From a virus, in the IMG/VR virus record IMGVR_UViG_3300030294_000939, positions 1 to 30,029 of that record: a stretch of DNA of 30,029 bases; one strand, given 5' to 3'. Under the pieces are notes generated by a model. The model had not been told where the DNA came from, made no database searches, and worked only from the letters and a program-made list of their open reading frames with translations. The first letter of the stretch is position 1. Each line of letters begins with the position of its first letter. The position numbers and the translations under genes were made by a program. This document shows, one piece after another, positions 8,642 to 24,219 of this stretch.

Positions 8642-9047
8642 ATTAAAAGAGTTTGAGGGCTGCAAATTGGCAGCCTATCAAGATGCTGTCGGTGTATGGA
8701 CTATCGGTATAGGTCATACGGTAGGAGTAAAGAAAGGTCAAAAGATCACTTTACAGCAGGCAGAAGTCCTGTGCAAAGGTGATTTGTTGAAAGTTGAAAC
8801 TTACCTCAATAGTTTGAAGATACCTTTTACTCAAGGTCAGTTTGATGCGTTGTGTGATTTTGCTTTTAATTTTGGTACAGGAGCGTTGGCAGAAAGTACC
8901 TTGTTAAAGAAAATCCGGATTAACATAAATGATAAGACTATTCCTTATCAGTTTACACGTTGGATATATCAAAAGGGCAGTGACAAGCCTGTAAATGGAT
9001 TGGTGACACGTCGTAATTGGGAGGCAATGAGATGGCAACAGAAATGA
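8613..9047 (+). CDS. Endolysin, GH24 (T4/P22-type) lysozyme
   Basis: This 144-residue protein matches the glycoside hydrolase 24 lysozyme family in length and motifs. The N-terminal KEFEGCKLAAYQDAVGV stretch holds the expected catalytic Glu15 and Asp24, and Thr30 lies in VWTIGIGHT, giving the E-D-T triad of phage lysozymes. FDALCDFAFNFG and the C-terminal RRNWEAMRW are also typical of the family. It cleaves the N-acetylmuramic acid to N-acetylglucosamine bond of peptidoglycan. There is no signal peptide, so it needs the holin for release. It overlaps the holin by 29 bp and the spanin candidate by 16 bp, indicating coupled translation. No key residue is missing. Confidence 0.93.
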   Translation: MKASQLLINKLKEFEGCKLAAYQDAVGVWTIGIGHTVGVKKGQKITLQQAEVLCKGDLLKVETYLNSLKIPFTQGQFDALCDFAFNFGTGALAESTLLKKIRININDKTIPYQFTRWIYQKGSDKPVNGLVTRRNWEAMRWQQK

Positions 9048-9571
9048 AATCAAAAAGTTACTTTACACTATTGATAGCAGTCTTATTGGCTGCTATCATC
9101 CTTTGCTTTTGCTCCTGTGGATCTAGTAAGCATATCACGAAAGAAAGCCTCAGCACGCAATCTGATTCGATCTACATGCATCATGATTCTACAGCTGTTC
9201 AAGTTGTCTCTAAAAAGATCGAAACCGACACCGGCACTGAAGAAGTGGAAACAACGACAACCACATACGATACGAAGACTACGGATAAAGATGGAACGCA
9301 CCCCGTTCTTTCTAGGACAACATCGACATCTAAGAAAGGGATTAAAAAGAACAAGGAAGAAGCGACATCGCAAGCTAAGCAAACAGTAAATAAGGATAGT
9401 GCTAAGGCTAATAAGAAGTCAGATCATAAAAAGGAAGTGAATAAAGCTAAGACCGAGACAACTGTACCGAAGCAGATATCTCATCTTGTTTGGTCTATAA
9501 TTGTTCTTATTATTATTTTCATTGGCTGGAAGTTTAGGGAAAAAATAAAGTTGCTCTTCCAAAAGAAATAA
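9032..9571 (+). CDS. Candidate unimolecular spanin (outer-membrane lipoprotein with C-terminal membrane anchor)
   Basis: This 179-residue protein starts at ATG 9032, 7 nt after a GGGAGG sequence at 9019-9024; in-frame ATG 9044 and TTG 9017 are alternatives. Residues 10-28 are strongly hydrophobic and end in CFCSC-GSSK, a lipoprotein-type cleavage site with Cys29 as the likely lipidated residue. The next 110 residues are polar, rich in Thr, Ser, Lys and Glu. Residues about 150-172 form a second hydrophobic helix followed by a basic tail. An N-terminal lipid anchor plus C-terminal inner-membrane helix is the layout of u-spanins such as T1 gp11, which fuse inner and outer membranes in the last lysis step. 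It follows the holin and endolysin directly. No acidic surface-export signal follows the cysteine. Confidence 0.6.
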   Translation: MATEMKSKSYFTLLIAVLLAAIILCFCSCGSSKHITKESLSTQSDSIYMHHDSTAVQVVSKKIETDTGTEEVETTTTTYDTKTTDKDGTHPVLSRTTSTSKKGIKKNKEEATSQAKQTVNKDSAKANKKSDHKKEVNKAKTETTVPKQISHLVWSIIVLIIIFIGWKFREKIKLLFQKK

Positions 9572-9800: not shown

Positions 9801-9855
9801 GAAGAATTAGATGTATAAAAGTTAGTGAAAATATTAATTGTATAACATTAATAAT

Positions 9856-10752
9856 ATGGGAAATTGTGCATTATGTGGAAAGTCAAAAGCAGATAAGAAA
9901 AATACTCATTATTTGACAGATTATATTATAAGAAGTGCATTAAATCAAGATGGAATTGATGGAAGTAAAAATAGAGAAAAAGGTGCTTATTTTGATTTGA
10001 CAACAGGAATTCCGGAGTTTAAATTTCAAAGAAATACTTCTCCAGAAAAGATAAAAGAAATAATAGGGCGTCAACCCACTGATGGGGAAATTGAAGATTC
10101 TAAGGAAAATATAGAATATTCAAAAGACAATATATTTTGTAGCAAATGTGAGGAAAGATTTACTAAGATAGAGAATGATTTTAAGCCAATATGTAATAAT
10201 TTTAGAAATGGAAATTATGTGAATAAGGAAAAAATTGTATTTTCAGACCAAAAAGATATTCTGAAAGTGAAATTATTTTTTATATTACAATTGTGGAGAA
10301 CAGCAGTCTGTGATGCTAATTTTATTGTTGATGATGAAACTATGAAATGCATGAAAGATGCTATTGATGATCCTACTTTAGAAAAAATATGTAAAGTTCC
10401 AATATCTGTATCTTATTTAACCACAAAAGGAGATAATAAAGAATATACAGGGAATATCGTTGGGCATAATACATTAGAGAAAGGCCCCTCAGTCATATTT
10501 ATGAATGATTTTGTGATCCAGTTATATAGCGTGAATTCTGATTTTAGATATGAAAATTTATATGGTATAAATGATGAAAATACTTATTGCGATTTTATTC
10601 ATTCAAAAAACAGTGATTTTAAAATAAAAAATATTTCCAATGAAGGACGGAAAAAAATAAATAAGGCTATCTTTAAGAGGAAATATCAGGAAAGATTGAT
10701 TTTACGGAGAATAGAGTTTTTAAAGAACTGCTGGATGAGTTTGCATGGATGA
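9856..10752 (+). CDS. HNH/treble-clef zinc protein of unknown function
   Basis: The ATG at 9856 is preferred over an upstream in-frame TTG at 9838 because the zinc motif follows it at once; this gives 298 residues. The N-terminus has CALCGKSKADKKNTHYLTDY, a CxxC followed by a His, and a second pair appears near residue 93 as FCSKCEERFTKIE. This 'CxxC...H...CxxCE' spacing is that of HNH_5-like or treble-clef zinc folds. The rest is mixed, with Lys-rich loops, and was not recognised. It stands alone between the lysis terminator and the RhuM gene, is AT-rich and uses codons like the cargo downstream. Being a solitary HNH-like protein in a phage cargo zone, it could be a nuclease effector or a homing-type remnant. 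No motif settles this. Confidence 0.55.
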   Translation: MGNCALCGKSKADKKNTHYLTDYIIRSALNQDGIDGSKNREKGAYFDLTTGIPEFKFQRNTSPEKIKEIIGRQPTDGEIEDSKENIEYSKDNIFCSKCEERFTKIENDFKPICNNFRNGNYVNKEKIVFSDQKDILKVKLFFILQLWRTAVCDANFIVDDETMKCMKDAIDDPTLEKICKVPISVSYLTTKGDNKEYTGNIVGHNTLEKGPSVIFMNDFVIQLYSVNSDFRYENLYGINDENTYCDFIHSKNSDFKIKNISNEGRKKINKAIFKRKYQERLILRRIEFLKNCWMSLHG

Positions 10753-10908
10753 GTACATGTTCTGATGATATCCGTTCACTCTTGTTTCAATATTTATGAC
10801 AGCACTAGTTAGAAGTAAAATAACCAATCATTTTGTGATCATATTATTGTAGTTGTATCCCTTGAGATAAAATTCAAAACTAAAATACGAACATCATAAG
10901 AAAAATAT

Positions 10909-10916
10909 TACCTTTG
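10909..10916 (+). promoter_or_regulatory. Bacteroidetes-type -7 box for the RhuM gene
   Basis: TACCTTTG at 10909-10916 matches the TAnnTTTG consensus of the Bacteroidetes primary sigma factor exactly. It lies 75 bp before the RhuM start. No TTTG -33 element was seen at the usual distance, so strength is uncertain. Confidence 0.5.
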
Positions 10917-10990
10917 TGATTAATTATATGCAACAAAATTAATTTTTTGCTTTGCAATTTTGGCAACTGTTTAACACAAAAAGATGATCT

Positions 10991-12148
10991 ATGGATGAAT
11001 TATATAGCCAATATAACTTTTTATTTTACCAAGGCAAAGATGGCAATACAAAAATACAAGTTTTTTTAGACCAGGAGTCTGAAACCATTTGGACCACACA
11101 AAAAGGTATGGGGGAAATATTTGACGTTGAAACTCATACAATCAATTACCATCTGAAAAATATTTTTGAATCTGGGGAATTAGAAGAAAATTCAGTTATT
11201 CGAAAAATTCGAATAACTGCTCTTGATGGAAAGAAGTACAACACAAACTTTTATAATCTTGACGCAATTATATCTGTAGGTTACAGAGTCAATTCTCAGA
11301 AAGCGACGGATTTCAGGATATGGGCAACGAGTATATTAAAAGAATATATGATAAAAGGTTTTGCCATAGATGATGAACGGTTAAAACAAGGAAGAGATGC
11401 TTTTGGCAAAGATTATTTTGAAGAATTACTTGCCCGTATAAGAGAAATACGCGCAAGTGAAAGACGATTCTACCAGAAAGTAACAGATATTTATGCTACA
11501 TCTATTGATTATAATAAAAATGCCTCAATAACGAATTTGTTTTTTAAAACAGTGCAAAATAAGCTTGAATATGCCGTCACAAAAAAAACTGCATCTGAAA
11601 TAGTTCAGTCAAGAGCGGATTCATCAAAACCGAATATGGGTTTACAGACTTGGAAGAACGCTAAAACACGAGGGAAAGTATTAAAGGGTGATGTGTCTGT
11701 AGCGAAAAATTATTTGACAGAAAAAGAGATAGCTGAACTTAACACCATTGTAAATATGTATCTTGATTATGCTGAGTTACAAGCTAAAAAGAGTAGGCCT
11801 ATGACAATGAAAGATTGGGTCGAGAAATTAGATGTATTTTTACAATTTAATGAATATGATTTATTACAAGATGCAGGACGTATTAGAGCTGATGTTGCAA
11901 AGGCTTTTGCTGAAAATGAATACAAAAAATATAGAGTCATTCAGGATAGAGAATATCAATCAGATTATGATAAATTCGTAGATGAAATAAAATCTACAGG
12001 AAATTTATCTTTGGAATCTAATTTGGAAATAGAAATACAAGAAAAACAAAAATTACCTGATTCCAATAAAGGCATAAATCTTGACCAAAATCCAAACGAC
12101 GGTAAAACGGGAAATAAAAAAAAGAAAAAGCGAAAAAAAAATGACTGA
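10991..12148 (+). CDS. rhuM: RhuM-family protein
   Basis: This 385-residue protein matches the RhuM family (first named from a Salmonella pathogenicity island) over most of its length. Recognisable blocks are IWTTQKGMGEIFDVETHTIN near residue 35, the YNLDAIISVGYRVNSQKATDFRIWAT block at about residues 88-115, and LKEYMIKGFAIDDERLKQG. The N-terminal part resembles the DNA-binding half of phage antirepressors. The biochemical role is not established; genes of this family are frequent on prophages and islands. The last 30 residues are unusual: a poly-Lys/Arg tail (KTGNKKKKKRKKND) encoded by A-runs. It has its own -7 box and an intergenic gap on each side, so it is a separate unit. A 12-bp perfect hairpin lies inside the gene at 11193-11219. 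Confidence 0.85.
   Translation: MDELYSQYNFLFYQGKDGNTKIQVFLDQESETIWTTQKGMGEIFDVETHTINYHLKNIFESGELEENSVIRKIRITALDGKKYNTNFYNLDAIISVGYRVNSQKATDFRIWATSILKEYMIKGFAIDDERLKQGRDAFGKDYFEELLARIREIRASERRFYQKVTDIYATSIDYNKNASITNLFFKTVQNKLEYAVTKKTASEIVQSRADSSKPNMGLQTWKNAKTRGKVLKGDVSVAKNYLTEKEIAELNTIVNMYLDYAELQAKKSRPMTMKDWVEKLDVFLQFNEYDLLQDAGRIRADVAKAFAENEYKKYRVIQDREYQSDYDKFVDEIKSTGNLSLESNLEIEIQEKQKLPDSNKGINLDQNPNDGKTGNKKKKKRKKND
11193..11219. repeat. 12-bp perfect inverted repeat inside rhuM
   Basis: CAGTTATTCGAA at 11193-11204 and its exact complement TTCGAATAACTG at 11208-11219 flank an AAA loop. It lies in the coding sequence for the residues SVIRKIRITA. There is no T-run after it, so it does not look like a terminator. 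Confidence 0.8.
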
Positions 12149-12441
12149 GGGATGTCACATTATGGTAGAACGAATTTACTATATCATTATTAGAATTACA
12201 ACAATAAACTGCCATATTAAAGGTTTTCAATGTTTTTCTAATTAGGTAATGCTTAATGAATAAGGCTCTTCTTGTTTCCTAGAATAGGCCGTAAGAGCAT
12301 TAGCAGTGAAAGGCTTTATTAAAGTGAAAATATATTAAAGTATGTCTAATAAAAGAGGATATTCTGTTTCGCTTTCAAAAAAAAAAGTAAATTACACTCG
12401 TTTTTTAAACAATTTATTTTTAGAATTAAAAATATTAATCG
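12149..12441. other. AT-rich intergenic region before the ABC-3C operon
   Basis: No convincing gene lies in these 293 bases. A weak inverted repeat pairs AATGCT at 12248-12253 with AGCATT at 12296-12301. I saw no TAnnTTTG box close to the operon start, so the promoter of the four-gene operon remains unplaced. Confidence 0.4.
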
Positions 12442-13662
12442 ATGAATAATAACTTAGAGGAATATAGAAAGAAGCATTCTGCTTTAGCGTCTCAAGCTGG
12501 TTTTAACTTCCAGTTCTTGGCTTTTTTGTATATTCTTGTGGCTTATCTTAAAAAGGATGATATAATAAAGTATGAGCAAGAAGATGATATTTCGCGATGT
12601 ACAGCAGAGGATATAACCATACTTATTCAAGTAAAATTTGGAGTGTTAACCGAGGATGGGACAGATCCTAAAGTAACTTTATTGGATGAGGATATATGGA
12701 AGACTATAGGAATTTGGTTAAATCAAGCCCAATTAAGCAGTGATTCTTATTTTTTTATTAAACATAGATTCCAAATTTGGACAAATAAAGATGTAAATGG
12801 AAATGAATTTTTGTCTAAGATTTTAGCTTTCAGTGAAAATTCCATAAAACTAATAGATATAAGGAATGAGTTAGACTATTTATACACAAAAACAAAAAAT
12901 GAAAGTGTAAAATTAGTTATTAAAAAAATGGAAGAATTGTCAGATGAGAATCTAAGTACTTTTTGTAAATATTTTAAATGTGAAAGGTTCGAAGGTATTT
13001 CTATTATTGATAAAATTCAAAAGTCTTTAGTCGATGAACGTAATATTCCTAAAAATTATGCAGAACAGGTTTTTATTGAGCTTTCTGGTCATATGCTCGT
13101 CGATAATTTTCGATCAGAATATTTACATGAAAAAATAGAGTTTTCATGGGTTGACGTTAAGAAGAAGTATAATGGAATATTATCTATGTCCCAGAAGAGA
13201 AACTTGGAATTGAACCGTGATATTGGAGCTTTTATGCCGGATTCAATTTGTTCTGATACATTTGTTAAACAGTTATTAGATATAAAAGTCATTAGCCACA
13301 CAGATGAAGAGAAGATTCGGAATTTATATTGGAAAAGATGTTTTACAACTACGAATCTTTTGGAGCAGGCAACGAATATTTCTGAGACAGAGTGGGCAGA
13401 TCTTGATCGCGAAGCAATGAATAGGTGGGAACAATTGTTTGATAAGTCTTGTTTTAAATTTAAACTTAAATCTTCTATAAAAGAAAAAGAAGTGTTGTTT
13501 GCAGCAAATGGATGTTATTTTGATGTAATGGGATATAATTTGGCAACTCCAATTTTTCAACAGGATCTAGAGTTTAGTCAAGGGTATTTTTTAAATTTAT
13601 CAGATGGACCTGTTATAGGTTGGAGATTCGATTGGAAGGAGAAATATGGCAAAAAAAAATGA
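12442..13662 (+). CDS. ABC-three-component effector protein, Cap4/DUF4297-like nuclease N-terminus
   Basis: This 406-residue protein is gene 1 of a four-gene overlapping operon. Residues 18-67 show the pattern of dsDNA nucleases of the Cap4/DUF4297 type: an N-terminal helix with Gln24, an acidic cluster E45-E47-D48-D49, a further E56-D57, and the strand ILIQVKFG with Gln63 and Lys65. This is a PD-(D/E)xK-style active site. The middle is helical. The C-terminus ends with an IGWRFDWKEKY motif, resembling the 'IGWHPD' end of ABC-3C C-terminal domains. In these predicted conflict systems the C-terminal domain docks the effector onto the ABC ATPase and middle component. Role by family: DNA cleavage once the ATPase is triggered. 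The nuclease assignment is by motif only, and the domain could be a divergent or inactive member. Confidence 0.65.
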   Translation: MNNNLEEYRKKHSALASQAGFNFQFLAFLYILVAYLKKDDIIKYEQEDDISRCTAEDITILIQVKFGVLTEDGTDPKVTLLDEDIWKTIGIWLNQAQLSSDSYFFIKHRFQIWTNKDVNGNEFLSKILAFSENSIKLIDIRNELDYLYTKTKNESVKLVIKKMEELSDENLSTFCKYFKCERFEGISIIDKIQKSLVDERNIPKNYAEQVFIELSGHMLVDNFRSEYLHEKIEFSWVDVKKKYNGILSMSQKRNLELNRDIGAFMPDSICSDTFVKQLLDIKVISHTDEEKIRNLYWKRCFTTTNLLEQATNISETEWADLDREAMNRWEQLFDKSCFKFKLKSSIKEKEVLFAANGCYFDVMGYNLATPIFQQDLEFSQGYFLNLSDGPVIGWRFDWKEKYGKKK

Positions 13663-14095
13663 AATAGTAAATCTGTTTGGAATCTACAATAATGAAGCAC
13701 TTGTTAGTGTTTTAATTGAAAAAATTCTGTATTATCAAAAACGAATGGATATTGCTAAATTAAATCTTATAGTAGCAATTTTAATGGATGAAAAGTTCGT
13801 TTATTCTGATAATTTTGTATTATTTTTGAAAAATAATGCAAGAACGATTTTATGTTTACGATCCTTTTATGAGGCTTTACTTCCTGTATACATTAACTCG
13901 TTAACCTTTTTATTGGAAGCTTGTGATGTAAGTATAGAAGGTACAAATGTAGAAATTAATTCCAGGCTTCAGCCTTCAGATTTCGAAAAAAGCAAAAGAT
14001 TAAATGCAATGATAGAAAATATCCCAATTTTATTAGCATTAGTTAATGATAAAAAGAAAGAAGAACTTTATAAAATATTTGATATTAAATTATGA
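13646..14095 (+). CDS. ABC-three-component system middle component
   Basis: This 149-residue protein overlaps gene 1 by 17 bp and gene 3 by ATGA, so all three are probably co-translated. It begins with an 'NLFGIYNNEALVSVLIEKIL' helix, has a conserved-looking LP/INSLTFLLEA helix in the middle, and is nearly all alpha-helical with no cysteine cluster or membrane segment. Size, helical make-up and position between a nuclease-CTD protein and a DUF3732 ATPase match the middle components described for ABC-3C systems. These are thought to bridge ATPase and effector. The sequence has no catalytic motif, so the call rests largely on operon context. Confidence 0.6.
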   Translation: MAKKNEIVNLFGIYNNEALVSVLIEKILYYQKRMDIAKLNLIVAILMDEKFVYSDNFVLFLKNNARTILCLRSFYEALLPVYINSLTFLLEACDVSIEGTNVEINSRLQPSDFEKSKRLNAMIENIPILLALVNDKKKEELYKIFDIKL

Positions 14096-15972
14096 AATTT
14101 TGGATTAAACATATAACTCTTTGGTTCGGAGAAAAAGAGAAATCTCAGATCCTTGAACTTGAACCTAATAAAATAAATGTTGTAACTGGAGATTCTGGAT
14201 CTGGTAAAACTAATATTTTAGCCATAATTGATTATTGTCTTTTATCTGCAAAGAATCACATTGTTCGAGAAATTATAGATGATAATGTAGATTGGTATAG
14301 TCTAGAATTTTTTGTTGATGACAGAAAAATTTTTATTGGAAGAAGAAGAACCCAGGAAGAATTAACAAGTTCAGAGATTTGTTTTCGTGAAAACTCCGAA
14401 AATAACAATTATCCATGCGTAAATATTGAAGAAAAAGAGGCTAAGGAACGCTTGTATAAATTATTAGGGCCACAGATTTTGAATATTATTCCTAATAATA
14501 AGATGGATAAAAATTTCAAGTTGTCTTTTAGGCAATTTTTAGTTTTTTCTTACTTGACTGAAAAAATTATAACATTAGATGATATATTTCTTGATTTTGA
14601 TTTTTTAGAGGACTTCTGTTATGGAGAAAAGAGTGAATATCGCTCTTATGTATTTAACCAGGCTGCTGGCTTTGATGAGATAGAACTACGTTCTTTAATT
14701 GAAACAAGAGATGAATTAGGGGAAAAAAAAGATATTAATGACAGGCGTTCTAAAAAACAAATTCAAAAGCAGAATGATTTTAAAAAGGAGATGAAAGAGT
14801 TATTTGAGGATTTACAATCTCGTAATCTCATTGAACTTAACAGAACGTATCAGGATGAAAATTTTGTAGTTGAGGACGTCAATAAATTATATCAGCTCTG
14901 CATTAATCAAATAAAGAAAGAAGAAAATAAATTTAATTTAAGGGATTGCAAAAAAACTCTTTCGACATTAAAAAGACAGCTAAAGCAGATAAGAGATACT
15001 GAAGATTGGATAGAAAATTATAATTATCAGATTGAAAAATTGGAAGATAGTCTTGTCCCGATACAAATTTTAAATGACCAAAAAAATCAGATTGCCCGTT
15101 CCTATGAAACAACGCAAATTATCGATGCTCTTACTAAGTCTTTGGCGGAAATAAAAAAAGCAGATCTTTCGAAAGTCCGTAATACAATAATAAGCGATAT
15201 TGATAAAAAAAGAATTGAAATTGAAATAAAAGATTTAGAGATTAAGGTAAAAGAACTATCAGAATCGGATCATTATTTTTCTGTATCAGATAGCGTCTTT
15301 ATCATAGATCGAAAAAGACAAATTGATGAAACATATTCTCAACTTAAAAAATTAGATAAAATTGAAATAATTGAAAACTATATAGAGATAAAGCAGACTT
15401 TGTTGGCTAAAATCGGCAAATTGGAGGAAGTAAAAAACTCAATTAAAGAAAGCATTGAAGAGTCGATACAAAAGTTTTACAATCAACTTAATTATATGGC
15501 AAATTATGCGAGTTGTAAAACTGTATTTGATGAAGATCGTTTTCGGTTGAAATTAAAAGGAAACTCAAATGTAACTAGTTATGAGTATGTTGGTAGTAAG
15601 TCTAATTATATGTTTATGCATTTAGTATTTTTCTTAGGGTTGCATAAATTGTTTTTGGGTCTTGAAAAAAATTATGTACTTCCTTTCTTGTTCATTGATC
15701 AACCTAGTATTCCTTATTATTCTGGTAGTGAAAAAGTGAATGAGGATGATAAAGATAAATTGATGGATGCTTTTAATCTGTTAGATAAATTCATTAGTAC
15801 TGTTAATAATGAAAATAAAGATTTTCAGATTTTGATGATAGAGCATGCTCCTAAAAGTTACTGGATGGATTCAAAAAATAATTATATTCTTAAAAACTTT
15901 CATACAGTGAAAGAATTTGTTAATGGGGAAAAACTTATTCCACAAAATATTATAGACGCTCACAAAAAATGA
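14092..15972 (+). CDS. DUF3732-type ABC ATPase of an ABC-three-component system
   Basis: This 626-residue SMC/Rad50-like ATPase has Walker A GDSGSGKT at residues 33-40, a long Lys/Glu coiled-coil region at about 190-450, a signature-like GSKSNYMFMHL at about 501-511, and the Walker B region LPFLFIDQPSIPYY with Asp536. After it comes MLIEHAPKSYW with Glu584-His585, like the H-loop. The 'FLFIDQPS...YY' and 'IEHA' forms are typical of DUF3732 proteins, in which the Asp-Gln pair replaces the usual Asp-Glu. The family is a core part of ABC-3C systems and is inferred to sense unusual DNA ends or structures. It overlaps both neighbours by ATGA. Motifs are complete and there is no sign of decay. Confidence 0.85.
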   Translation: MKFWIKHITLWFGEKEKSQILELEPNKINVVTGDSGSGKTNILAIIDYCLLSAKNHIVREIIDDNVDWYSLEFFVDDRKIFIGRRRTQEELTSSEICFRENSENNNYPCVNIEEKEAKERLYKLLGPQILNIIPNNKMDKNFKLSFRQFLVFSYLTEKIITLDDIFLDFDFLEDFCYGEKSEYRSYVFNQAAGFDEIELRSLIETRDELGEKKDINDRRSKKQIQKQNDFKKEMKELFEDLQSRNLIELNRTYQDENFVVEDVNKLYQLCINQIKKEENKFNLRDCKKTLSTLKRQLKQIRDTEDWIENYNYQIEKLEDSLVPIQILNDQKNQIARSYETTQIIDALTKSLAEIKKADLSKVRNTIISDIDKKRIEIEIKDLEIKVKELSESDHYFSVSDSVFIIDRKRQIDETYSQLKKLDKIEIIENYIEIKQTLLAKIGKLEEVKNSIKESIEESIQKFYNQLNYMANYASCKTVFDEDRFRLKLKGNSNVTSYEYVGSKSNYMFMHLVFFLGLHKLFLGLEKNYVLPFLFIDQPSIPYYSGSEKVNEDDKDKLMDAFNLLDKFISTVNNENKDFQILMIEHAPKSYWMDSKNNYILKNFHTVKEFVNGEKLIPQNIIDAHKK

Positions 15973-17009
15973 AAATAAATTTTGGCAAGATACAGCATAT
16001 GGTTATGCATCAGGTAGGAAACCGCCATAGAGGAGAAGGTGTTAGATTTTCCTCAGAAGAGACAACGTTGGCTGACGCAGAAGATGATCTTTTGAATATC
16101 ATTAAAAGTTCATTCAAGATGAATGAGCTTTATCAATTTTATTTTGAGCCCCATTTATCATTGAATCCTGTCTTTACACTTGTAAAGCCTATTTTTGATG
16201 ACGACGAATTGTTTATTAAGCAAACTAGAAATATTTCAAAGTATTTGTATAAGAAAACGTTTCATCCTCAAGTAAAGTCAGGAGATCTATGTTTTATCTA
16301 CTTAAAGGATTGCAAAGTAGAAGAGAATTCTTTCGATGCCTTATGCATCTTCAAATCCGAGATGAAAGAAAGCGTTTTGCAGATTCAACCTAGTGAAAAT
16401 GGATTTACTTTAACTAAGCGTCAAGGAATTTCTTTGAATAATATAGATAAAGGATGCCTCATTTTGAACCTTGATTCAGAAAATGGATATAAAATAGCTA
16501 TCATTGATAAAGTTAAAAAAACAGAAGAAATTCAGTATTGGCTAGAAGACTTTCTCTCTGTTCGTCCAATAGAAAATAGTTTTCATAAGACACAAACTGT
16601 AATGAATATGGTAACTTCATATTTAAATGAAGAGTGTGATCAACTTATAGGTAATGATAAAGCTCAAAAGGCTGCAATCACAAATAAATGTCTAGAAATT
16701 TTATCTAAGCCGACAGAGATTAGTCTTTCTATACTGGCGGAAGGGGCGTTTGAAGATCAAACTCTTCGAAATGATTTTTTGCGATATTCAGAATCTTACC
16801 AAGCAGATAATAATGATTATTTGGGAGATGAAAAATGGTTAGTACAGAAGTCTGCCGTGTCAAAAAAAGGTTTAAAAAAATTGCGGGTCATAAAACTAGA
16901 TAAAAATTTTGAAATTTATATTCATGGTGATAATAAATACATAACGAAAGGATATGATGATAGTCTTTCTATGGATTATTATCAGCTGTATTTCAAGAAA
17001 GAAAAATAA
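15969..17009 (+). CDS. 37-kDa nucleoid-associated protein (NdpA/YejK family)
   Basis: This 346-residue protein starts in an ATGA overlap with the ATPase gene and has the usual length of the YejK/NdpA (pfam NA37) family. Family-like features include the opening 'KINFGKIQHMVMHQVGNRH' strand, the 'AEDDLLNIIKSSFKM' helix, the 'SGDLCFIYLKDCKVEENSFDALCIFKSE' beta pair at about residues 98-125, and a GCLILNLDSENGYKIAIID strand. Members bind nucleoid DNA in E. coli. Here it is the fourth gene of an ABC-3C-like operon, which suggests that it is a DNA-recruiting or sensing module for the nuclease complex. The link to the system is from gene overlap; the family match is by remembered patterns. Confidence 0.75.
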   Translation: MKINFGKIQHMVMHQVGNRHRGEGVRFSSEETTLADAEDDLLNIIKSSFKMNELYQFYFEPHLSLNPVFTLVKPIFDDDELFIKQTRNISKYLYKKTFHPQVKSGDLCFIYLKDCKVEENSFDALCIFKSEMKESVLQIQPSENGFTLTKRQGISLNNIDKGCLILNLDSENGYKIAIIDKVKKTEEIQYWLEDFLSVRPIENSFHKTQTVMNMVTSYLNEECDQLIGNDKAQKAAITNKCLEILSKPTEISLSILAEGAFEDQTLRNDFLRYSESYQADNNDYLGDEKWLVQKSAVSKKGLKKLRVIKLDKNFEIYIHGDNKYITKGYDDSLSMDYYQLYFKKEK

Positions 17010-17122
17010 TGATGATAAAGCATTTAGACAAAAAAATTGTGGAAATAGACTATTTAGCGTGAATGTGGTGAATTTTGTATTTCATAATCACGAAAGACGT
17101 TTTTGAGGCTTTAGCTTGACTT

Positions 17123-17152
17123 TTTGTCTAAACTCTTTTTATTGTTAATTTG
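17123..17152 (+). promoter_or_regulatory. Probable Bacteroidetes promoter for the nitrilase-STAND unit
   Basis: TTTG at 17123-17126 (-33) is followed after 18 bp by TTAATTTG at 17145-17152, seven of eight bases matching the TAnnTTTG -7 box. Transcription would begin near 17159, about 43 bp before the start codon at 17202. It implies that this pair is transcribed separately from the ABC-3C operon. Confidence 0.45.
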
Positions 17153-17201
17153 AATTTGTTTTATCCTTTTTAAAAATTATTTTACTTAAAATATTTATAG
17201 T

Positions 17202-17876
17202 ATGAAAGAAAATTTAATTGACTGTGCGAAAATAGCTAAAAACGTAAATTTACCAAATTATTGTAAATTTTGTTTCGGCATATCTGCTTCAAAAGATATA
17301 TATAAGGAGGATCTTTATGAAGAAATAATTCAGAATGTGAATAAGCCTGATCATGATGCTAATGTCCCCGATTTAATTATTAATTATAAAGATGAGGATA
17401 CGAATGATTTTATATCATTTTATAAGGCATGGAATAAATATTCCAATGTATGTCAGGTGGAAAAGATGATAATGGAAGATAAATGTTTATACTACGAATT
17501 TTCTGAGTTTACAGATCAATCTTTGATAATACCTGAAATACGTTATCCTTTATATCTGTTGCTTTATATATTGAAAGCGTATCAAAAAAAATCTTCTAAT
17601 TTTGATGGGTGTACTTTTTCATTGTTTTTTTCAGTTTATAATAATACTTCATCTTATTTTGATTATCGTTATAGTCCAATGATCTGTGATTATAATTGGT
17701 TGTTGAAATATGAATTGTCTAATGGAAAATTGTTAAAAAGTAAAATAGAAAGTGTAAGTGACTTGTACCTTGTAGTTCGTCGATTTTATGAGTTGTTTAA
17801 GACTTCCGTAAAAACGGATAAACCGTATGTCATTTTGGATTCTAACAGTTTTGATAAAGTATATAAATCGATTTAG
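17202..17876 (+). CDS. Unknown 224-residue partner of the nitrilase-STAND protein
   Basis: I do not recognise this family. The protein is soluble by eye, acidic in its first half, and rich in Tyr, Phe and Asn, with an aromatic core 'YPLYLLLYILKAYQKK' near residue 120 and 'YNNTSSYFDYRYS' near 150. CKFCFGISAS near residue 21 gives one CxxC, but no second pair makes a clear zinc site. It is preceded by its own probable promoter and stops 4 bp before the ATG of the large nitrilase-STAND gene, so the two form a bicistron. It may be a sensor, adaptor or antidote-like regulator of that protein. It is AT-rich like the rest of the cargo. Confidence 0.65.
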   Translation: MKENLIDCAKIAKNVNLPNYCKFCFGISASKDIYKEDLYEEIIQNVNKPDHDANVPDLIINYKDEDTNDFISFYKAWNKYSNVCQVEKMIMEDKCLYYEFSEFTDQSLIIPEIRYPLYLLLYILKAYQKKSSNFDGCTFSLFFSVYNNTSSYFDYRYSPMICDYNWLLKYELSNGKLLKSKIESVSDLYLVVRRFYELFKTSVKTDKPYVILDSNSFDKVYKSI

Positions 17877-17880
17877 TCAA

Positions 17881-20766
17881 ATGAATACACGCTATGAAGT
17901 CAAAAAGGTTGTAAGCGATGAGAGTCGGCAAGAGAAAATAAAAGTTATGATTTGTCAGCTAAGATGGGATAATTATACTTTTAATAAAGTGGATGATTTA
18001 TTTTTTCTTGAATATAATGAAAAAATTAGATCTAATATTTTTAGATTGTTAAATATAGCTCAAAAGAAAAATGTAGATGTTATTGTTTTCCCAGAATTAT
18101 CTATACCTGAAAAATTAACAGAGTCTTTATATGAGTTCGCATCAATAAATCATATTTATATTATAGCTGGTACACATTATAAAAAAAATGATGAAAAATA
18201 TATATCAATTTGTCCGGTAATATCTCCAACTAAAATATATTACACTCAGAAAATCAATCCTTCTCCTTTTGAGACATCTTCTTTTCCGAATTGTGGTCTT
18301 CAAGGTGGTACTAGTTCTTTGGTTTTTCAGAATACAAAAATCGGAAATTTTGCTGTGGCAATATGCGCAGATTATATGGATGATCAATTAAAACAGGATT
18401 TAAATATTGATTTTTTAGATTTATTGTTTGTACCAGCTTTTCACCCCTCTTCAGAAATGTATTATTCGCGAATGCAAAATGATACTCAAAATTCAAGAGA
18501 TGGTTTATATATAATATACTCTAATTTCATTAAAGAAAATACGGCTGACGGTCATAGCTCATTATTTGGTATAATGGATCATAAATTGGAGCAACAATTT
18601 GTAGAGCATGGCTGTACAGATATGAATCCAACTAACAAAATATATCAAATGCCCGATGCATCTGAATATGTTATTTTAGAATTAAATTTACAAGATAAGA
18701 AACCTAAAATGGGCAGAAATTTATATTCTGAAAGAAATGTAAATGTTATTGAAGAAGATAATACCATTAATCAAGAGAAATATGACTTTATTTCAACCCT
18801 AGGTGTAAGTGACGATAAGTATAAATTTATTGAAAGACTTTTTGTATTACCTAATGAATATCAGGAAATAAAATTATCTTTGGATAATAAAAATGTGGTA
18901 TTGATACTTGGAGATCCTGGTATTGGTAAAACTTATACTGCTATCAATCTTTTATATGAGTATTTTAAAAAAGGCTATAATATTAGATGGTTTTATGGAT
19001 TGAGTAAAGAGGAAAGGGAAATTCAGAGAGATAATCTTATTAATTTTGAGCCACAGGATAATGAAATTGTTTATTTTGAAGATCCTTTTGGAAGAATTCA
19101 ATTTGAAAAGAAAGATGATCTTATCCAGATTTTTATGCCTCTTTTATGTAAAATAAAAGCTAGTAAATCGAAAATGATAATAACATCAAGAAGTGATGTA
19201 TTTGAAATATTTTCTAAGGAAACTTTAGATGAGCATGATTTGATTGGCTATTCTCAAGAAATGAATATTCGCAAACCGTCATACTCTAAAGATAAGTTGA
19301 AAATGATTGTTGATAAATGTTTAGAGTTCTATACTGATTGGTCTATGAATAAGTCTTTAAAGAATTTAATATATAAGGCTATAGATGACGAAAAGATATT
19401 GGCTCCTCTGGTTATTTATAATTTATTGAGAGAAAATTCTATACATCCAACAGAAATGTATTTACATGAAGTGATAGAGACACAAAGTAGCAATTTGGTT
19501 TTTACCTTTTCTAAGGACATATCAAAATTGTCAATACCGACAAAGATTTTTCTATATGAGGTCTTTTTAATCAGCAATATGCATATAAAAGAATACCAAA
19601 ATATTTTTGAACAAGTTCAAGTTAAATTACTAGCTAAAAATATCAAATTTGAATATTCATCATTATCCTCTGAAATAGATTCACAATTAGGATACAGAGT
19701 ACAACAAATTGGAATAAAGAGGCTAACATATAGATTCTCTCATCCAATTTTTGAAGAAGCCTTATCGAAATTATTAGGTTCGGATTCAACTTGTACTTTA
19801 ATATCAAAGGAAATATATCAAGAGATCTTTAATCTTGATCAGAAATTGGCATATAAAGTACTGATTAGATTAATTATAAAATATCCAGATAAGGCTTTAA
19901 TGCTTTATCATCATATAAAATTATCAACAGCTTTTGGAATGATTGATGAAGAAATTAAAATAGAGATGTGTAGTAAAATGCTTTCATCAAAAAATAAAAG
20001 TTTTGAAGATGAGGCTATAATTCTATTCCCTTTGAATAATTTGTTGATTTCATTGTATAGTGTTAATAATACGGGCAATTTATTGTTATATAAGTTGATG
20101 TTGCTAAAACGAAGACATTGGGAAATTGAAAATGCTAAGATAAAAATTGATTGGAAAAATATTTTTACCAAAGAAAGGATTAAATCTATCCAAGTTACTC
20201 GATTGTTAAATTGTTTAAAAGTAGCGTTGGATGTTGATGATACTGTAGTAAAAAAAATTGAAGATAATTTTTATAAAATTGATATTTTAAAGAAATTTAT
20301 TGTTTTACCATCAAAGAATGAAAGAGAAATATTTGATGAAATGCTAAAAGGTACATCTTTTGGTAATGTATATGAAGAGTTAAAATCCGCTGTTCCTATA
20401 ATTGAAGCAAAATATGGTAGAAAGGCATATATAAAAATATTGAAACAATATGTTGCTGTGAGAAAACGTATAAAAGGAAAAATAGTAATAGATGATGGAG
20501 CTTTATATGCATTAAATAGAAAAGCGAAATTGTATCCTGTAGGGATATTAAATATTAGCGGGCATTTTGAAAGTGGGGATATCGTAGAGTTTATAGGATT
20601 ACATGGAAATTTCTTTTTTGTTGGTATGACTGAACTTTCTTCTGCATTTTTAGATAAATTTAAAGGCTATAGAACACAAGAAATTAATGAACAAACATCT
20701 GATTTTCAATCAACAATAGTTTCTAGAGATATTTATCGTTATAAAAAAAGATATAAATTTGCGTAA
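17881..20766 (+). CDS. Nitrilase - nSTAND NTPase - PUA multidomain protein
   Basis: The ATG at 17881 (4 bp after the previous stop) is preferred over one at 17827 inside the previous gene; it gives 961 residues. Residues 20-300 match the carbon-nitrogen hydrolase (nitrilase) fold with its triad: Glu72 in FPELSIP, Lys124 in YTQKINPSPFE, Cys162 in AVAICADYM. Residues 335-480 form an nSTAND3-like NTPase: Walker A GDPGIGKT (344-351), Walker B IVYFEDPFG with Asp401, and sensor IITSRSD with Arg437. Residues 480-840 are helical, with no clear repeat by eye. Residues 865-945 resemble the PUA domain at the end of glutamate 5-kinase: KIVIDDGALYAL, PVGILNISGHFESGDIVEF, then a Gly-turn and VGM. STAND proteins oligomerise on sensing a target; here the nitrilase would be effector and PUA or helices the sensor (inference). 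Confidence 0.75.
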   Translation: MNTRYEVKKVVSDESRQEKIKVMICQLRWDNYTFNKVDDLFFLEYNEKIRSNIFRLLNIAQKKNVDVIVFPELSIPEKLTESLYEFASINHIYIIAGTHYKKNDEKYISICPVISPTKIYYTQKINPSPFETSSFPNCGLQGGTSSLVFQNTKIGNFAVAICADYMDDQLKQDLNIDFLDLLFVPAFHPSSEMYYSRMQNDTQNSRDGLYIIYSNFIKENTADGHSSLFGIMDHKLEQQFVEHGCTDMNPTNKIYQMPDASEYVILELNLQDKKPKMGRNLYSERNVNVIEEDNTINQEKYDFISTLGVSDDKYKFIERLFVLPNEYQEIKLSLDNKNVVLILGDPGIGKTYTAINLLYEYFKKGYNIRWFYGLSKEEREIQRDNLINFEPQDNEIVYFEDPFGRIQFEKKDDLIQIFMPLLCKIKASKSKMIITSRSDVFEIFSKETLDEHDLIGYSQEMNIRKPSYSKDKLKMIVDKCLEFYTDWSMNKSLKNLIYKAIDDEKILAPLVIYNLLRENSIHPTEMYLHEVIETQSSNLVFTFSKDISKLSIPTKIFLYEVFLISNMHIKEYQNIFEQVQVKLLAKNIKFEYSSLSSEIDSQLGYRVQQIGIKRLTYRFSHPIFEEALSKLLGSDSTCTLISKEIYQEIFNLDQKLAYKVLIRLIIKYPDKALMLYHHIKLSTAFGMIDEEIKIEMCSKMLSSKNKSFEDEAIILFPLNNLLISLYSVNNTGNLLLYKLMLLKRRHWEIENAKIKIDWKNIFTKERIKSIQVTRLLNCLKVALDVDDTVVKKIEDNFYKIDILKKFIVLPSKNEREIFDEMLKGTSFGNVYEELKSAVPIIEAKYGRKAYIKILKQYVAVRKRIKGKIVIDDGALYALNRKAKLYPVGILNISGHFESGDIVEFIGLHGNFFFVGMTELSSAFLDKFKGYRTQEINEQTSDFQSTIVSRDIYRYKKRYKFA

Positions 20767-20978
20767 GTTTTCGGCGAACCCCGTATTTCAAAATCCTTGA
20801 AGACTATCAAAAGTCTACAGATATTCTTCAAGGATTTTCATTATTTTTCAAAGATATATTCAAAAACTCCGTAAGCATTCGGCGAACCCCGTATTTCAAA
20901 ATCCTTGAAGACTATCAAAAGTCTACAGATATTCTTCAAGGATTTGTATTATTTTTCAAAGATATATTCAAAAACTCC
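20763..20978. repeat. Two tandem copies of a 108-bp repeat with nested hairpins
   Basis: Copy 1 is 20763-20870 and copy 2 is 20871-20978, differing at only a few bases (TTTTCGG against CATTCGG; GGATTTTCATT against GGATTTGTATT). A short third start (AACATTCGG) follows at 20982-20990. Copy 1 begins over the TAA stop of the nitrilase-STAND gene. Each copy holds an inverted repeat, AAATCCTTGAAG and CTTCAAGGATTT, at 20791-20802/20826-20837 and 20899-20910/20934-20945, with an inner AGACT/AGTCT pair. T-rich sequence follows each stem, so they may serve as tandem terminators between converging transcripts. Confidence 0.9.
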
Positions 20979-21122
20979 TAAAACATTCGGAGACAGTTAG
21001 GAGACTTTCAGAGAGATCCCTAATACTATTAATATTTTCTATTAAACCTGTCAGTATATCTGATCTTCCTAATTTTCATGGGATTATCACAGTTCTATTC
21101 AGATTTTTTAGGAAGAAGATCC
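20979..21122. other. Gene-free stretch between convergent units
   Basis: No gene is seen here. An 8-bp inverted repeat, CTTCCTAA at 21065-21072 and TTAGGAAG at 21108-21115, spans a 35-base loop and is not a typical terminator. Confidence 0.5.
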
Positions 21123-21545
21123 TTATATTTTACTTTCATTTTTCATAAAATAATCTAGCATAGTTTGTAATTCTTGCAACTTAGGCAATATATAGCTTCT
21201 ATTTTGAACATAAAAATTAGCAATATCTCCTAATTTATTTTTTGAAAATGTCGTTAATTTAAGTGATGTTTGCGGATAAGATGGCATGCCTGCACTTAAG
21301 AGTATGGATTCTAAAATTGTTGTGCTTAAATCTATAACTCTATGTAGTGGTAATTCTTCACTTTGTCTACTCCACTGTGTACCTGTATTTCGAAAAACTT
21401 TAGCAGATATTTCGTCACTGTTATATTGAGCTTCTCCAATTGACAATGATTCTACATCTGTGTTTGTTCCATTGAATCCATCATGGAGTTTATAGTCGTC
21501 TACTGCAACTATGGGCTTATGCGATAAATGAGTTGGTGTTGTCAT
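21123..21545 (-). CDS. Small protein downstream of Mrr, possibly DUF6530 family
   Basis: This 140-residue protein has a distinctive central block, WSRQSEELPLHRVIDLSTTI at about residues 58-77, preceded by 'HLSHKPIVAVDDYKLHDGF' and 'SLSIGEAQYNSDEISAKVFRNTG'. From memory this resembles DUF6530 proteins, whose role is unknown; the match is tentative. The C-terminal third is helical. The gene lies 45 bp after the Mrr gene and follows it in the same direction, ending toward the tandem repeats. The tight position suggests a restriction partner or regulator, but there is no catalytic motif. There is no signal peptide or membrane segment. Confidence 0.6.
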   Translation of the reverse strand: MTTPTHLSHKPIVAVDDYKLHDGFNGTNTDVESLSIGEAQYNSDEISAKVFRNTGTQWSRQSEELPLHRVIDLSTTILESILLSAGMPSYPQTSLKLTTFSKNKLGDIANFYVQNRSYILPKLQELQTMLDYFMKNESKI

Positions 21546-21590
21546 GAATTCTTATTTTAAATTGTGATTTAATTTCTTGATAATTATATT

Positions 21591-22508
21591 TTATTCTTCG
21601 TCAAAGAAGTCTTCATCAATTTCTTTCAGTTCATAAGCGTGTTGAGTTGTACAACCAATATTGTTGTCAACCATGAGTTGAGCAAGCATTTTACCGTCAA
21701 TAAGAACAATTTTGGTCTCATTCCTAGGAATATAGCTTTTTGCTTCATTCGTGTAGTCAGCTGTAGTAATAAATATGCCTTTTTTGGCACCTTGACCAGC
21801 TAATGCACCAACAAATTTCTGAATTTCTGGGCGTCCTACGACACTACCTGGAGCCCATCTTTTAGCCTGAATATAAATTATATCAAGTCCTAACTTGTCT
21901 TCCTTGATTGTTCCGTCTATGCCTTCATCTCCACTTTTCCCAATAGCTTTACCGGCATCTGTAATTGAACCTCCGTAGCCCATACTAACCAAAAGTTTAA
22001 CAACTAACCTTTCAAAAAATGCCGGTGATAGTTCCATAACTTTATTTAATAAGTCAGAGGCCAGAGACTTACGTATTTCTTGATATGCGTTGTCAAGTGT
22101 TTCTGCTGGAGTTTCATTATTAGATATGTCAATAGATTCGTCAGAAATATTGCCTGATTCCTCATGACTAGGATGTACAAACTCTAAAAATGAAGGAAAC
22201 TTCCTTAGATATTTGGCATCAATTCTATTTAATCCCTCTTTTAGTGTTTCTTGCCCGAGATCTGTAATAATAAATGTGGCTCTTTGGGGAGAGGATATGA
22301 GTCCCGCTTTCTTTAAATAGGATTTAGCCCAGCCAACTCTATTGTCAAATATTCCTTGGTTGCCACTAGTTAGAAGTTCTTTGCGCTCTTCATCGGTTAC
22401 ATTGAATTCCTCGGCTAATAGATCTGTTAGATCTCTTGCTTTATATTCTTTCCCATCTGCAAAAATTTTAAGCAATGGGAGCATTATTGATTGGTAGTCT
22501 GGTATCAT
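21591..22508 (-). CDS. mrr: Mrr-family type IV restriction endonuclease
   Basis: This 305-residue protein has the two-part Mrr architecture. Residues 1-95 form a winged-helix Mrr N-terminal domain (AKSYLKKAGLISSPQRATFIITDLG, near residue 61). Residues 155-285 are the PD-(D/E)xK catalytic domain: FFERLVVKLLVSMGYGG, GDEGIDGTI with Asp198, and YIQAKRWAP with Gln214 and Lys216. These are the core Mrr active-site residues. Mrr enzymes cut DNA containing methylated bases, so the phage or host lineage carrying it would restrict modified incoming DNA. It lies between two small unknown genes on the same strand. Codon use and composition are closer to the early operon than to the AT-rich cargo. All key motifs are intact. 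Confidence 0.92.
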   Translation of the reverse strand: MIPDYQSIMLPLLKIFADGKEYKARDLTDLLAEEFNVTDEERKELLTSGNQGIFDNRVGWAKSYLKKAGLISSPQRATFIITDLGQETLKEGLNRIDAKYLRKFPSFLEFVHPSHEESGNISDESIDISNNETPAETLDNAYQEIRKSLASDLLNKVMELSPAFFERLVVKLLVSMGYGGSITDAGKAIGKSGDEGIDGTIKEDKLGLDIIYIQAKRWAPGSVVGRPEIQKFVGALAGQGAKKGIFITTADYTNEAKSYIPRNETKIVLIDGKMLAQLMVDNNIGCTTQHAYELKEIDEDFFDEE

Positions 22509-22560
22509 ATTGAATTTTTTAAATGTATTATTGCTAAATTAGGTTTTAGCAAAATCATAA

Positions 22561-22872
22561 TTATTTTTTATTTGCTTTTTCTATATCATTAAGTGTTTTA
22601 TATATTTCATCTTCTTTGTAACGTCCAATACTTATATCATCTTCATTTATGACGTCATAAAAGTTACAAAGTTCATAGGCATCGTCTGCTACTTTTACGG
22701 GTTTAAGTTCTCTTGGAGAAGTTCCTACTAGGACTGTCCCCTTACGTTCAGGTTCTTCCGGTGCAATTTTTCCTTTTACCTTTTCTCCTTTGTACATTAC
22801 ATATACTGGATCTCCCTTTGCGTATTTTGGCATAACATCAAACTCAGTTTCTTCCATCATATTACTTCCCAT
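22561..22872 (-). CDS. Small acidic/basic protein upstream of Mrr
   Basis: This 103-residue protein is unrecognised. Residues 13-60 look beta-rich: YAKGDPVYVMYKGEKVKGKI followed by 'EPERKGTVLVGTSPRELKPV', which has the rhythm of a small SH3-like or Tudor-like barrel, although this is only a visual impression. The C-terminus is helical and charged. Methionines at residues 1, 5 and 6 all could start translation. The gene precedes Mrr by 52 bp in the same direction and follows a candidate -7 box at 22958-22965, so it may head the restriction unit. Confidence 0.55.
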   Translation of the reverse strand: MGSNMMEETEFDVMPKYAKGDPVYVMYKGEKVKGKIAPEEPERKGTVLVGTSPRELKPVKVADDAYELCNFYDVINEDDISIGRYKEDEIYKTLNDIEKANKK

Positions 22873-23005: not shown

Positions 23006-23098
23006 TTATTCTTGCTTGACAAATCTTACGACATATTTACTGCCACAAGCCTCAGCCTGTCGTTGAATTTCTTTCTGTTTGTCTAGCTTTTTCCTTTC
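23006..23098 (-). pseudogene. Remnant 3' end of a second VRR-NUC nuclease gene
   Basis: Read on the minus strand, these bases encode KLDKQKEIQRQAEACGSKYV followed by VRFVKQE and a TAA at 23006-23008. The intact VRR-NUC gene downstream in coordinates has SDEQKEFQRQIEACGSKYVV in its last third. The upstream frame hits a stop within about 10 bases, so no start or catalytic part remains. The two copies differ at many third positions and the remnant has a shorter end, so it is a diverged allele, not a recent duplicate. Confidence 0.8.
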
Positions 23099-23105
23099 GT
23101 TTTAT

Positions 23106-23145
23106 AAAAAAAGCAGGTACACATAAATTATATTTGTGACCTGCC
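23106..23145 (-). terminator. Intrinsic terminator of the lipoprotein gene
   Basis: On the minus strand GCAGGT pairs with ACCTGC (23139-23144 and 23113-23118), the stem continues with CAC/GTG-type pairs around a small bulge, and seven T residues follow (23106-23112). It lies 24 bp past the lipoprotein stop. Confidence 0.85.
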
Positions 23146-23168
23146 TATTTAATATTGTGCTAGAAAAA

Positions 23169-23558
23169 TTATGGCTCCAATATTCCTACTAGCGTAGTAC
23201 CAGCGAATTCTATGGTAGTATTATCATTTTTTTTGAGGTAATAAATTTGCTGAATCCATCTTGATGCTGCTTTTGAATTTGCAGCTTTGACGGTCAAATA
23301 TAATTTTACCTTTTCTGTATTGGGGTTAGCTGTAAATGTTTTTGATAAACCATTTTTACATTCGATGTTGTTATTTGCTATTTGCTCTCCTTTGCTATTG
23401 TATTCAAGTATAGTCATTGAAGCGGATATATCTGATAAATCATCCATTGAGTAAAGGAAAGTGTAGGTAGTAGGACTTACTGAATCATCTTTAGAGCAAG
23501 ATGTTAAACTTACGACAGATGCCATTATGAGCATCAAAAAAAAAGAAATTTTTTTCAT
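23169..23558 (-). CDS. Small surface lipoprotein (phage moron)
   Basis: This 129-residue protein begins with a textbook lipoprotein signal: KK, a hydrophobic core, and LTSC with Cys21 as the lipidated residue. The next residues, SKDDS, match the Lys plus acidic pair of the Bacteroidetes lipoprotein export signal, which predicts display on the outer face of the outer membrane. The mature part (about 108 residues) is beta-rich (TYTFLYSMDDLSDISASMTI) and has no recognised domain. It is bracketed by its own promoter and terminator and interrupts two VRR-NUC sequences, the classic make-up of a moron expressed by a lysogen. A role in superinfection exclusion or host surface change is inference. Confidence 0.75.
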   Translation of the reverse strand: MKKISFFLMLIMASVVSLTSCSKDDSVSPTTYTFLYSMDDLSDISASMTILEYNSKGEQIANNNIECKNGLSKTFTANPNTEKVKLYLTVKAANSKAASRWIQQIYYLKKNDNTTIEFAGTTLVGILEP

Positions 23559-23663
23559 TTTATGTAATATTTTATTTAGAAAATAGATAGTAAAGTTCTT
23601 TTAGTAATAGTCAAGCATGAGTATAAAATATAGAACTTTGCTATATCTTCATGAATTTTGTTG

Positions 23664-23694
23664 CAAAAATAATGTATTTGATATTATTTTACAA
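23664..23694 (-). promoter_or_regulatory. Promoter of the lipoprotein gene
   Basis: On the minus strand TATTTTTG (23671-23664) matches TAnnTTTG exactly, and a weak -33 TTGT lies about 20 bp upstream near 23691-23694. The start codon at 23558 would follow a leader of about 100 nt. Confidence 0.5.
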
Positions 23695-23760
23695 GGCATT
23701 AATAAATATTTTAATTCTATTTTTAATTAATTGTAACATAATTGTTTAATTACCATGAAG

Positions 23761-24219
23761 TTATACTAAGTATTTTTTTACAATTTTTATTGTTTGAGCA
23801 ACTGATCTAACAACAACATACTTACTTCCACAAGCCTCAATTTGCCGTTGAAATTCTTTCTGCTCATCGGATTGTTTCCCTTTGGCCGTTTTAAATTCAA
23901 GACAAAGAGAAGCATATCCATGTTTAGGGATAAGAAGAATTACATCAGCTACACCCGGAACAACGCCTTGGTATTTCATGTTGCGTGCTTCAATGATATT
24001 GCGTGAACCACCATTTGGAACAGCAAACAATAGTTTACTTGGAAGCTTTGGGAATAATATCCGAACTTGCTTAAAGAACTCTGATTGTATTTGAGCCTCT
24101 TCGTTACTATGCTTCTTTTTACCCTTATGTGAAGAATAGCAGTTTAAGCATACAGGCCCGTTCTCCGTTTTAATGAGAGAACGAGTCGTTTGGCCACAAG
24201 CCGTACATTTATTTGTCAT
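23761..24219 (-). CDS. VRR-NUC domain nuclease with N-terminal zinc ribbon
   Basis: This 152-residue protein has a four-cysteine zinc ribbon (Cys5, Cys8, Cys24, Cys27), then the VRR-NUC fold: EEAQIQSEFFKQV, PNGGSRNIIEARNMKYQGV, PGVADVILL with Asp92, and CLEFKTAKGKQSDEQKEFQ with Glu108 and Lys110. That is the full PD-(D/E)xK active site. Stand-alone phage VRR-NUC proteins are thought to act as Holliday junction resolvases or structure-specific nucleases in replication. It overlaps the ASCH gene by 11 bp. An extra zinc ribbon is common in Bacteroides phage members. A diverged fragment of the same family lies at 23006-23098. Confidence 0.9.
   Translation of the reverse strand: MTNKCTACGQTTRSLIKTENGPVCLNCYSSHKGKKKHSNEEAQIQSEFFKQVRILFPKLPSKLLFAVPNGGSRNIIEARNMKYQGVVPGVADVILLIPKHGYASLCLEFKTAKGKQSDEQKEFQRQIEACGSKYVVVRSVAQTIKIVKKYLV

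Follow-up and report, generated by a model that had tools for sequence, protein, structure and literature searches.

Organization of the locus

The stretch analysed here, referred to as the window, is a 30-kb IMG/VR record (30,029 nucleotides) of a Bacteroidales phage. Because relatives of this phage are embedded in chromosomal contigs assigned to named species, B. ihuae and Phocaeicola plebeius among them, the group is most likely temperate. The early genes (SNF2-type helicase, methylase-like, HNH, ASCH and VRR-Nuc) are transcribed on the minus strand, toward the structural and lysis genes, which run against them from the other side. An intact VRR-Nuc nuclease gene (23761..24219, minus strand; Pfam VRR_NUC, 1.7e-7), present in nearly all relatives, is the last of the early operon and marks the edge of a cargo hotspot. 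The interval 23101-23760 is exactly a lipoprotein unit extending up to the VRR-Nuc stop. Its gene (23169..23558, minus strand) encodes 129 amino acids: a signal peptide (residues 1-20) ending in a lipobox (MKKISFFLMLIMASVVSLTS-C), a lipidated cysteine at position 21, a C-S-K-D-D export signal and a mature domain of about 105 residues. The product opens with MKKISFFLMLIMASVVSLTSCSKDD, and its N-terminus reads MKKISFFLMLIMASVVSLTSC followed by SKDDSV; its only cysteines are at positions 21 (the lipidated residue) and 67. At 9017-9571, adjoining the holin and endolysin genes, the window encodes another product with a lipobox, which has no export signal and carries a C-terminal transmembrane-like stretch; it looks like a single-protein spanin.

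The element is of a known kind; the lipoprotein family is new and is not covered by the curated libraries searched. Pfam, PHROGs and NCBIfam yielded only weak or sub-cutoff matches, mostly to signal peptides; tblastn against phage and plasmid records gave no match, and a PDB sequence search with the family profile gave nothing convincing. An AlphaFold2 model of the mature domain is all-beta with a mean pLDDT of 67.6; Foldseek against PDB and BFVD returned nothing at E <= 0.001, and the best VIA-align Z of 5.6 is at background level. With structural scores at background and a model of this pLDDT, no function is claimed from the fold.

Transcription signals

The first-pass annotation had credited the gene with its own -7 box and T-run terminator, and both a Bacteroides-type promoter and a hairpin terminator were found. 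The promoter (23664..23694, minus strand) consists of TTG at -33, a spacer of 20 nucleotides and TATTTTTG at -7, and lies 113 nt before the ATG. The pattern TTG-N19-21-TAnnTTTG occurs once when both strands of the 30-kb window are scanned, and in only 0.15% of shuffles (frequency 0.0015) of the 250-nt upstream stretch. A sigma-70 scan found nothing exceeding chance, as expected because the promoter is of the Bacteroides type. Within the 5' untranslated region an inverted repeat (23592..23639, minus strand; AAAGTTCT paired with AGAACTTT; z -2.6) may form a regulatory leader hairpin. Downstream of the gene, an intrinsic terminator made up of a hairpin and T-run (23106..23146, minus strand) has a folding energy of -14.6 kcal/mol (z -3.7), and the hairpin at the equivalent spot in the sister phage L002 (z -5.4) carries one compensatory stem change. 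The promoter was also considered as a family-wide trait and rejected as such, the strict pattern standing upstream of only 3 of 10 homologues.

Predicted surface display

The optimal export signal of Capnocytophaga surface lipoproteins is C-X-K-(D/E)2-X (PMC5080379), and in B. thetaiotaomicron a CS(D/E)2 motif is required for surface exposure of SusG (PMC6222051). The reading of LTSC followed by SKDD as a Bacteroidetes export signal holds up, in that LTS/C-SKDD matches the optimal C-X-K-(D/E)2; C-S-K-D-D also resembles the B. thetaiotaomicron motif. An adjacent acidic pair at positions +2 to +6 is found in 8 of 10 family members and in 1 of 16 other lipoproteins encoded in nearby Bacteroidales DNA, a comparison based on a small sample and a crude lipoprotein predictor. 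The lipobox and export motif thus support, at the level of sequence, the earlier prediction that the lipoprotein is displayed on the surface of the host cell. Another moron candidate lies on the reverse strand within the early operon of a Bacteroides neonati prophage (L014, 14203-14613); its product is a lipoprotein distinct from that of the window and carries the acidic export-type motif CSNDDDD.

The same combination of lipobox and acidic C-X-K-(D/E)2 motif is common to SusG, MucG and other Bacteroidetes export-signal lipoproteins. Those that have been studied are mostly chromosome-encoded nutrient-acquisition enzymes, whereas the window lipoprotein is prophage-borne, with a mature domain of about 105 residues and no known domain.

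A variable cargo slot at the end of the early operon

The cargo slot is bounded by VRR-Nuc, which closes the early operon, and by the convergent lysis genes; the lipoprotein gene comes first in it. The rest of the cargo block (9838..22872) encodes RhuM, a Lamassu-like LmuA/LmuB pair with a 149-aa middle gene and NA37, a nitrilase-nSTAND3 protein, DUF6530, an Mrr restriction enzyme and a 103-aa protein. In L002 the slot holds the lipoprotein gene, a gene for a 211-aa protein and a Qat system (QatA, QatC, QatD); in L016, DRT3b and a SIR2-type protein; and in L024, a Lamassu-like protein. In L013 and L017 the VRR-Nuc gene abuts the convergent late genes without cargo. On the basis of these slot contents, the lipoprotein gene marks the boundary of a prophage defence hotspot on the side of the operon. 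Temperate-phage defence hotspots are known from P2- and P4-type elements, in which a fixed slot carries exchangeable defence systems. The window slot is likewise fixed with exchangeable defence systems, but in this group of Bacteroidales prophages it is flanked by VRR-Nuc and convergent lysis genes and opens with an envelope lipoprotein gene. At 17202-20766 lie the gene for the nitrilase-nSTAND3 product, a 979-aa protein with carbon-nitrogen hydrolase, nSTAND3 NTPase and PUA domains, and just upstream a 224-aa gene that had no PADLOC or Pfam match; the two may together constitute an uncharacterised defence system.

Among phage records related through the helicase, a full lipoprotein homologue is present only in the window and L002, being absent from 16 of 17 relatives, several of which are fragments. 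Its own promoter and terminator, its variable cargo position, its absence from these 16 of 17 relatives and the occurrence of homologues on other mobile elements bear out the suggestion that this gene, which forms a unit of its own in the cargo of a temperate Bacteroidales phage, is a moron.

Divergence from a sister phage

In the comparison of the window with L002, early genes other than VRR-Nuc share 93.5-97.9% DNA identity (helicase, 97.0%) and VRR-Nuc 89.0%. The L002 lipoprotein gene occupies the same place as the window copy. Its leader (codons 1-25) is 98.7% identical to that of the window at the nucleotide level, and its mature domain is 65.7% identical with saturated synonymous change. 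Given this fall in identity behind the leader, the mature domain was exchanged or has diverged while the export leader remained fixed. A 150-bp stretch that includes the promoter (23588..23737, minus strand) is missing from L002 in the alignment of these two genomes; the L002 lipoprotein gene begins 52 nt after VRR-Nuc on the same strand, with no promoter of its own recognisable. In the absence of the promoter stretch, the L002 gene is probably co-transcribed with the early genes.

Behind the lipoprotein terminator sits a 96-bp remnant of the 3' end of a second VRR-Nuc gene (23006..23101, minus strand), which is 84% identical in DNA to the intact gene over 50 nt and whose best match outside the window is in L015 (85.7%). 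The remnant suggests the scar of a recombination join between modules at the hotspot edge, and that the module encoding the 103-aa protein, Mrr and DUF6530 once followed the VRR-Nuc gene of another phage.

Distribution of homologues

The first-pass annotation had named common chromosomal housekeeping homologues as a finding that would refute its reading; the homologues are not lipoproteins of that kind. Relative to the reference Bacteroides, strong homologues occur in 2 of 399 genomes sampled at family level, 2 of 393 at order level and 4 of 159 at genus level, a frequency below 3% of sampled Bacteroidales genomes, and mostly in differing surroundings; among 345 class-level genomes, none of the matches found was strong. 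A DNA search with the whole lipoprotein unit against the 159 Bacteroides genomes gave only short, chance-like matches. Family members share the pattern ..YT...EYN..G...FTA...KVK.Y...WVQQ(I/V)YYL...I..G...G..EP.

A look for homologues beside other phage genes had been suggested, and one (L077) lies in an unrelated prophage by tail genes, on the opposite strand. Two (L103 and L105) are on integrative elements that also carry integrase, HTH_17, AAA_25 and primase-like genes; others are near a PtuA-type ATPase (Septu-like) and Fic (L104), adjoin AbiEi/AbiEii of an AbiE system (L081), AbiH (L079; Pfam 2.7e-16) or an IS1595 transposase (L076), or are near an integrase-like gene (L080). Three distant homologues (L078, L083 and L106) have ordinary chromosomal surroundings, the latter two adjoining SusC/SusD-like genes. 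PADLOC models matched numbered 150 for 86 neighbours of homologues and 39 for 78 neighbours of unrelated lipoproteins; this comparison is no more than suggestive, since overlapping models were counted rather than loci, many control hits come from one model group and the control lipoproteins were unmatched for genome.

Possible functions of the lipoprotein

Superinfection exclusion, as the first-pass annotation proposed, is the best-supported mechanism for this moron, although we place it a little short of an even chance. The promoter would be read in the lysogen by the main sigma factor of the host; the product would be lipidated, sent to the outer membrane and, judging from the motif, flipped to the surface by means of its export signal; the small beta-rich domain would there most likely bind or shield either a phage tail protein or a receptor in the outer membrane, preventing adsorption or injection by related phages. 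A fixed export leader with a mature domain that is replaced or diverges would be expected if different alleles exclude different phages. In favour of this reading are the dedicated promoter and terminator, the hotspot of defence genes, the homologues on mobile elements or beside defence genes, the break between leader and mature domain, and precedents among phage lipoproteins; expression in the lysogen, surface exposure, a target and exclusion itself are inferred.

In E. coli, phage lipoproteins of several sequence types have been found experimentally to exclude phages by receptor group (PMC11893012), and Llp of phage T5, acting on the periplasmic side, jams FhuA, a TonB-dependent transporter (PMC9586334). 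Like the window protein, the Cor/Llp type (phages T1, phi80 and T5) and the Lpp types of mEpimmI coliphages are small phage-encoded outer-membrane lipoproteins that come in several allelic types and have a proposed action at the level of the receptor. The window lipoprotein has no detectable sequence similarity to them, and neither Cor/Llp nor any known exclusion protein was among the PDB and NCBIfam hits, the structure query being a model of pLDDT only 67.6. It is predicted to face outward, whereas Llp faces the periplasm, and its mature domain does not have the cysteine pair that would form a disulfide of the kind described for Llp (PMC9586334). Position differs as well. Exclusion lipoprotein genes of E. 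coli sit next to the tail receptor-binding gene, whereas the window gene lies in a defence hotspot and adjoins VRR-Nuc, which counts against exclusion, as do the missing promoter in L002 and the ordinary chromosomal surroundings of L078, L083 and L106.

The same observations admit other explanations. Immunity and resistance genes are often spread by mobile elements, and a small, mobile, rare lipoprotein with a diversified mature domain could protect the lysogen by neutralising the antibacterial toxin of a competitor (BSAP-type, type VI secretion system (T6SS) or bacteriocin). NCBIfam includes small Bacteroidales immunity lipoproteins such as BSAP-5i, a model that the homologue L044 matches weakly (E 0.037), but only in the signal peptide; no mature domain matched an immunity model, no toxin gene was recognised beside the homologues examined, and T6SS immunity proteins usually face the periplasm rather than the surface. 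We consider a role in immunity unlikely. We give a similarly low probability to a lysogenic-conversion lipoprotein that aids the host itself through adhesion, glycan or metal binding, or as vesicle cargo, unrelated to exclusion. Among the export-signal lipoproteins enriched in Bacteroides vesicles, nutrient hydrolases predominate (PMC6222051), there is a weak structural likeness to beta-sandwich carbohydrate-binding modules (Z 4.4-4.5), and L083 and L106 lie beside SusC/SusD-like genes; these structural scores are, however, at background level, and the closest homologues are on mobile elements and by defence genes, not in utilisation loci.

The arrangement in L002, where the gene is 52 nt downstream of a co-directional VRR-Nuc and lacks a recognisable promoter of its own, would fit an early lytic protein like T5 Llp, made from the replication operon and blocking receptors during the lytic cycle so that debris does not trap progeny. 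We regard this as improbable: a promoter of its own precedes the gene in the window, and no expression of the early operon is expected in a lysogen.

Implications for temperate Bacteroidales phages

The gut is rich in temperate Bacteroidales phages. In the literature searched, no envelope-level exclusion lipoprotein has been described for them, and the text of the Hankyphage literature yielded no known exclusion lipoprotein. Extending superinfection exclusion from the single gene to the family, it is conceivable, though we think it rather doubtful, that this undescribed mobile family of Bacteroidales surface lipoproteins serves at the border of the prophage defence hotspot as an envelope layer of exclusion, in which a fixed leader carries interchangeable, target-specific mature domains and which, unlike Llp, would depend on an export signal and act from outside. 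If the lipoprotein does exclude phages, one exchangeable slot of these prophages would hold both intracellular defence systems and a barrier facing outward, and the lipoproteins would provide a testable family together with a marker position, 3' of VRR-Nuc, at which more of them may be found.
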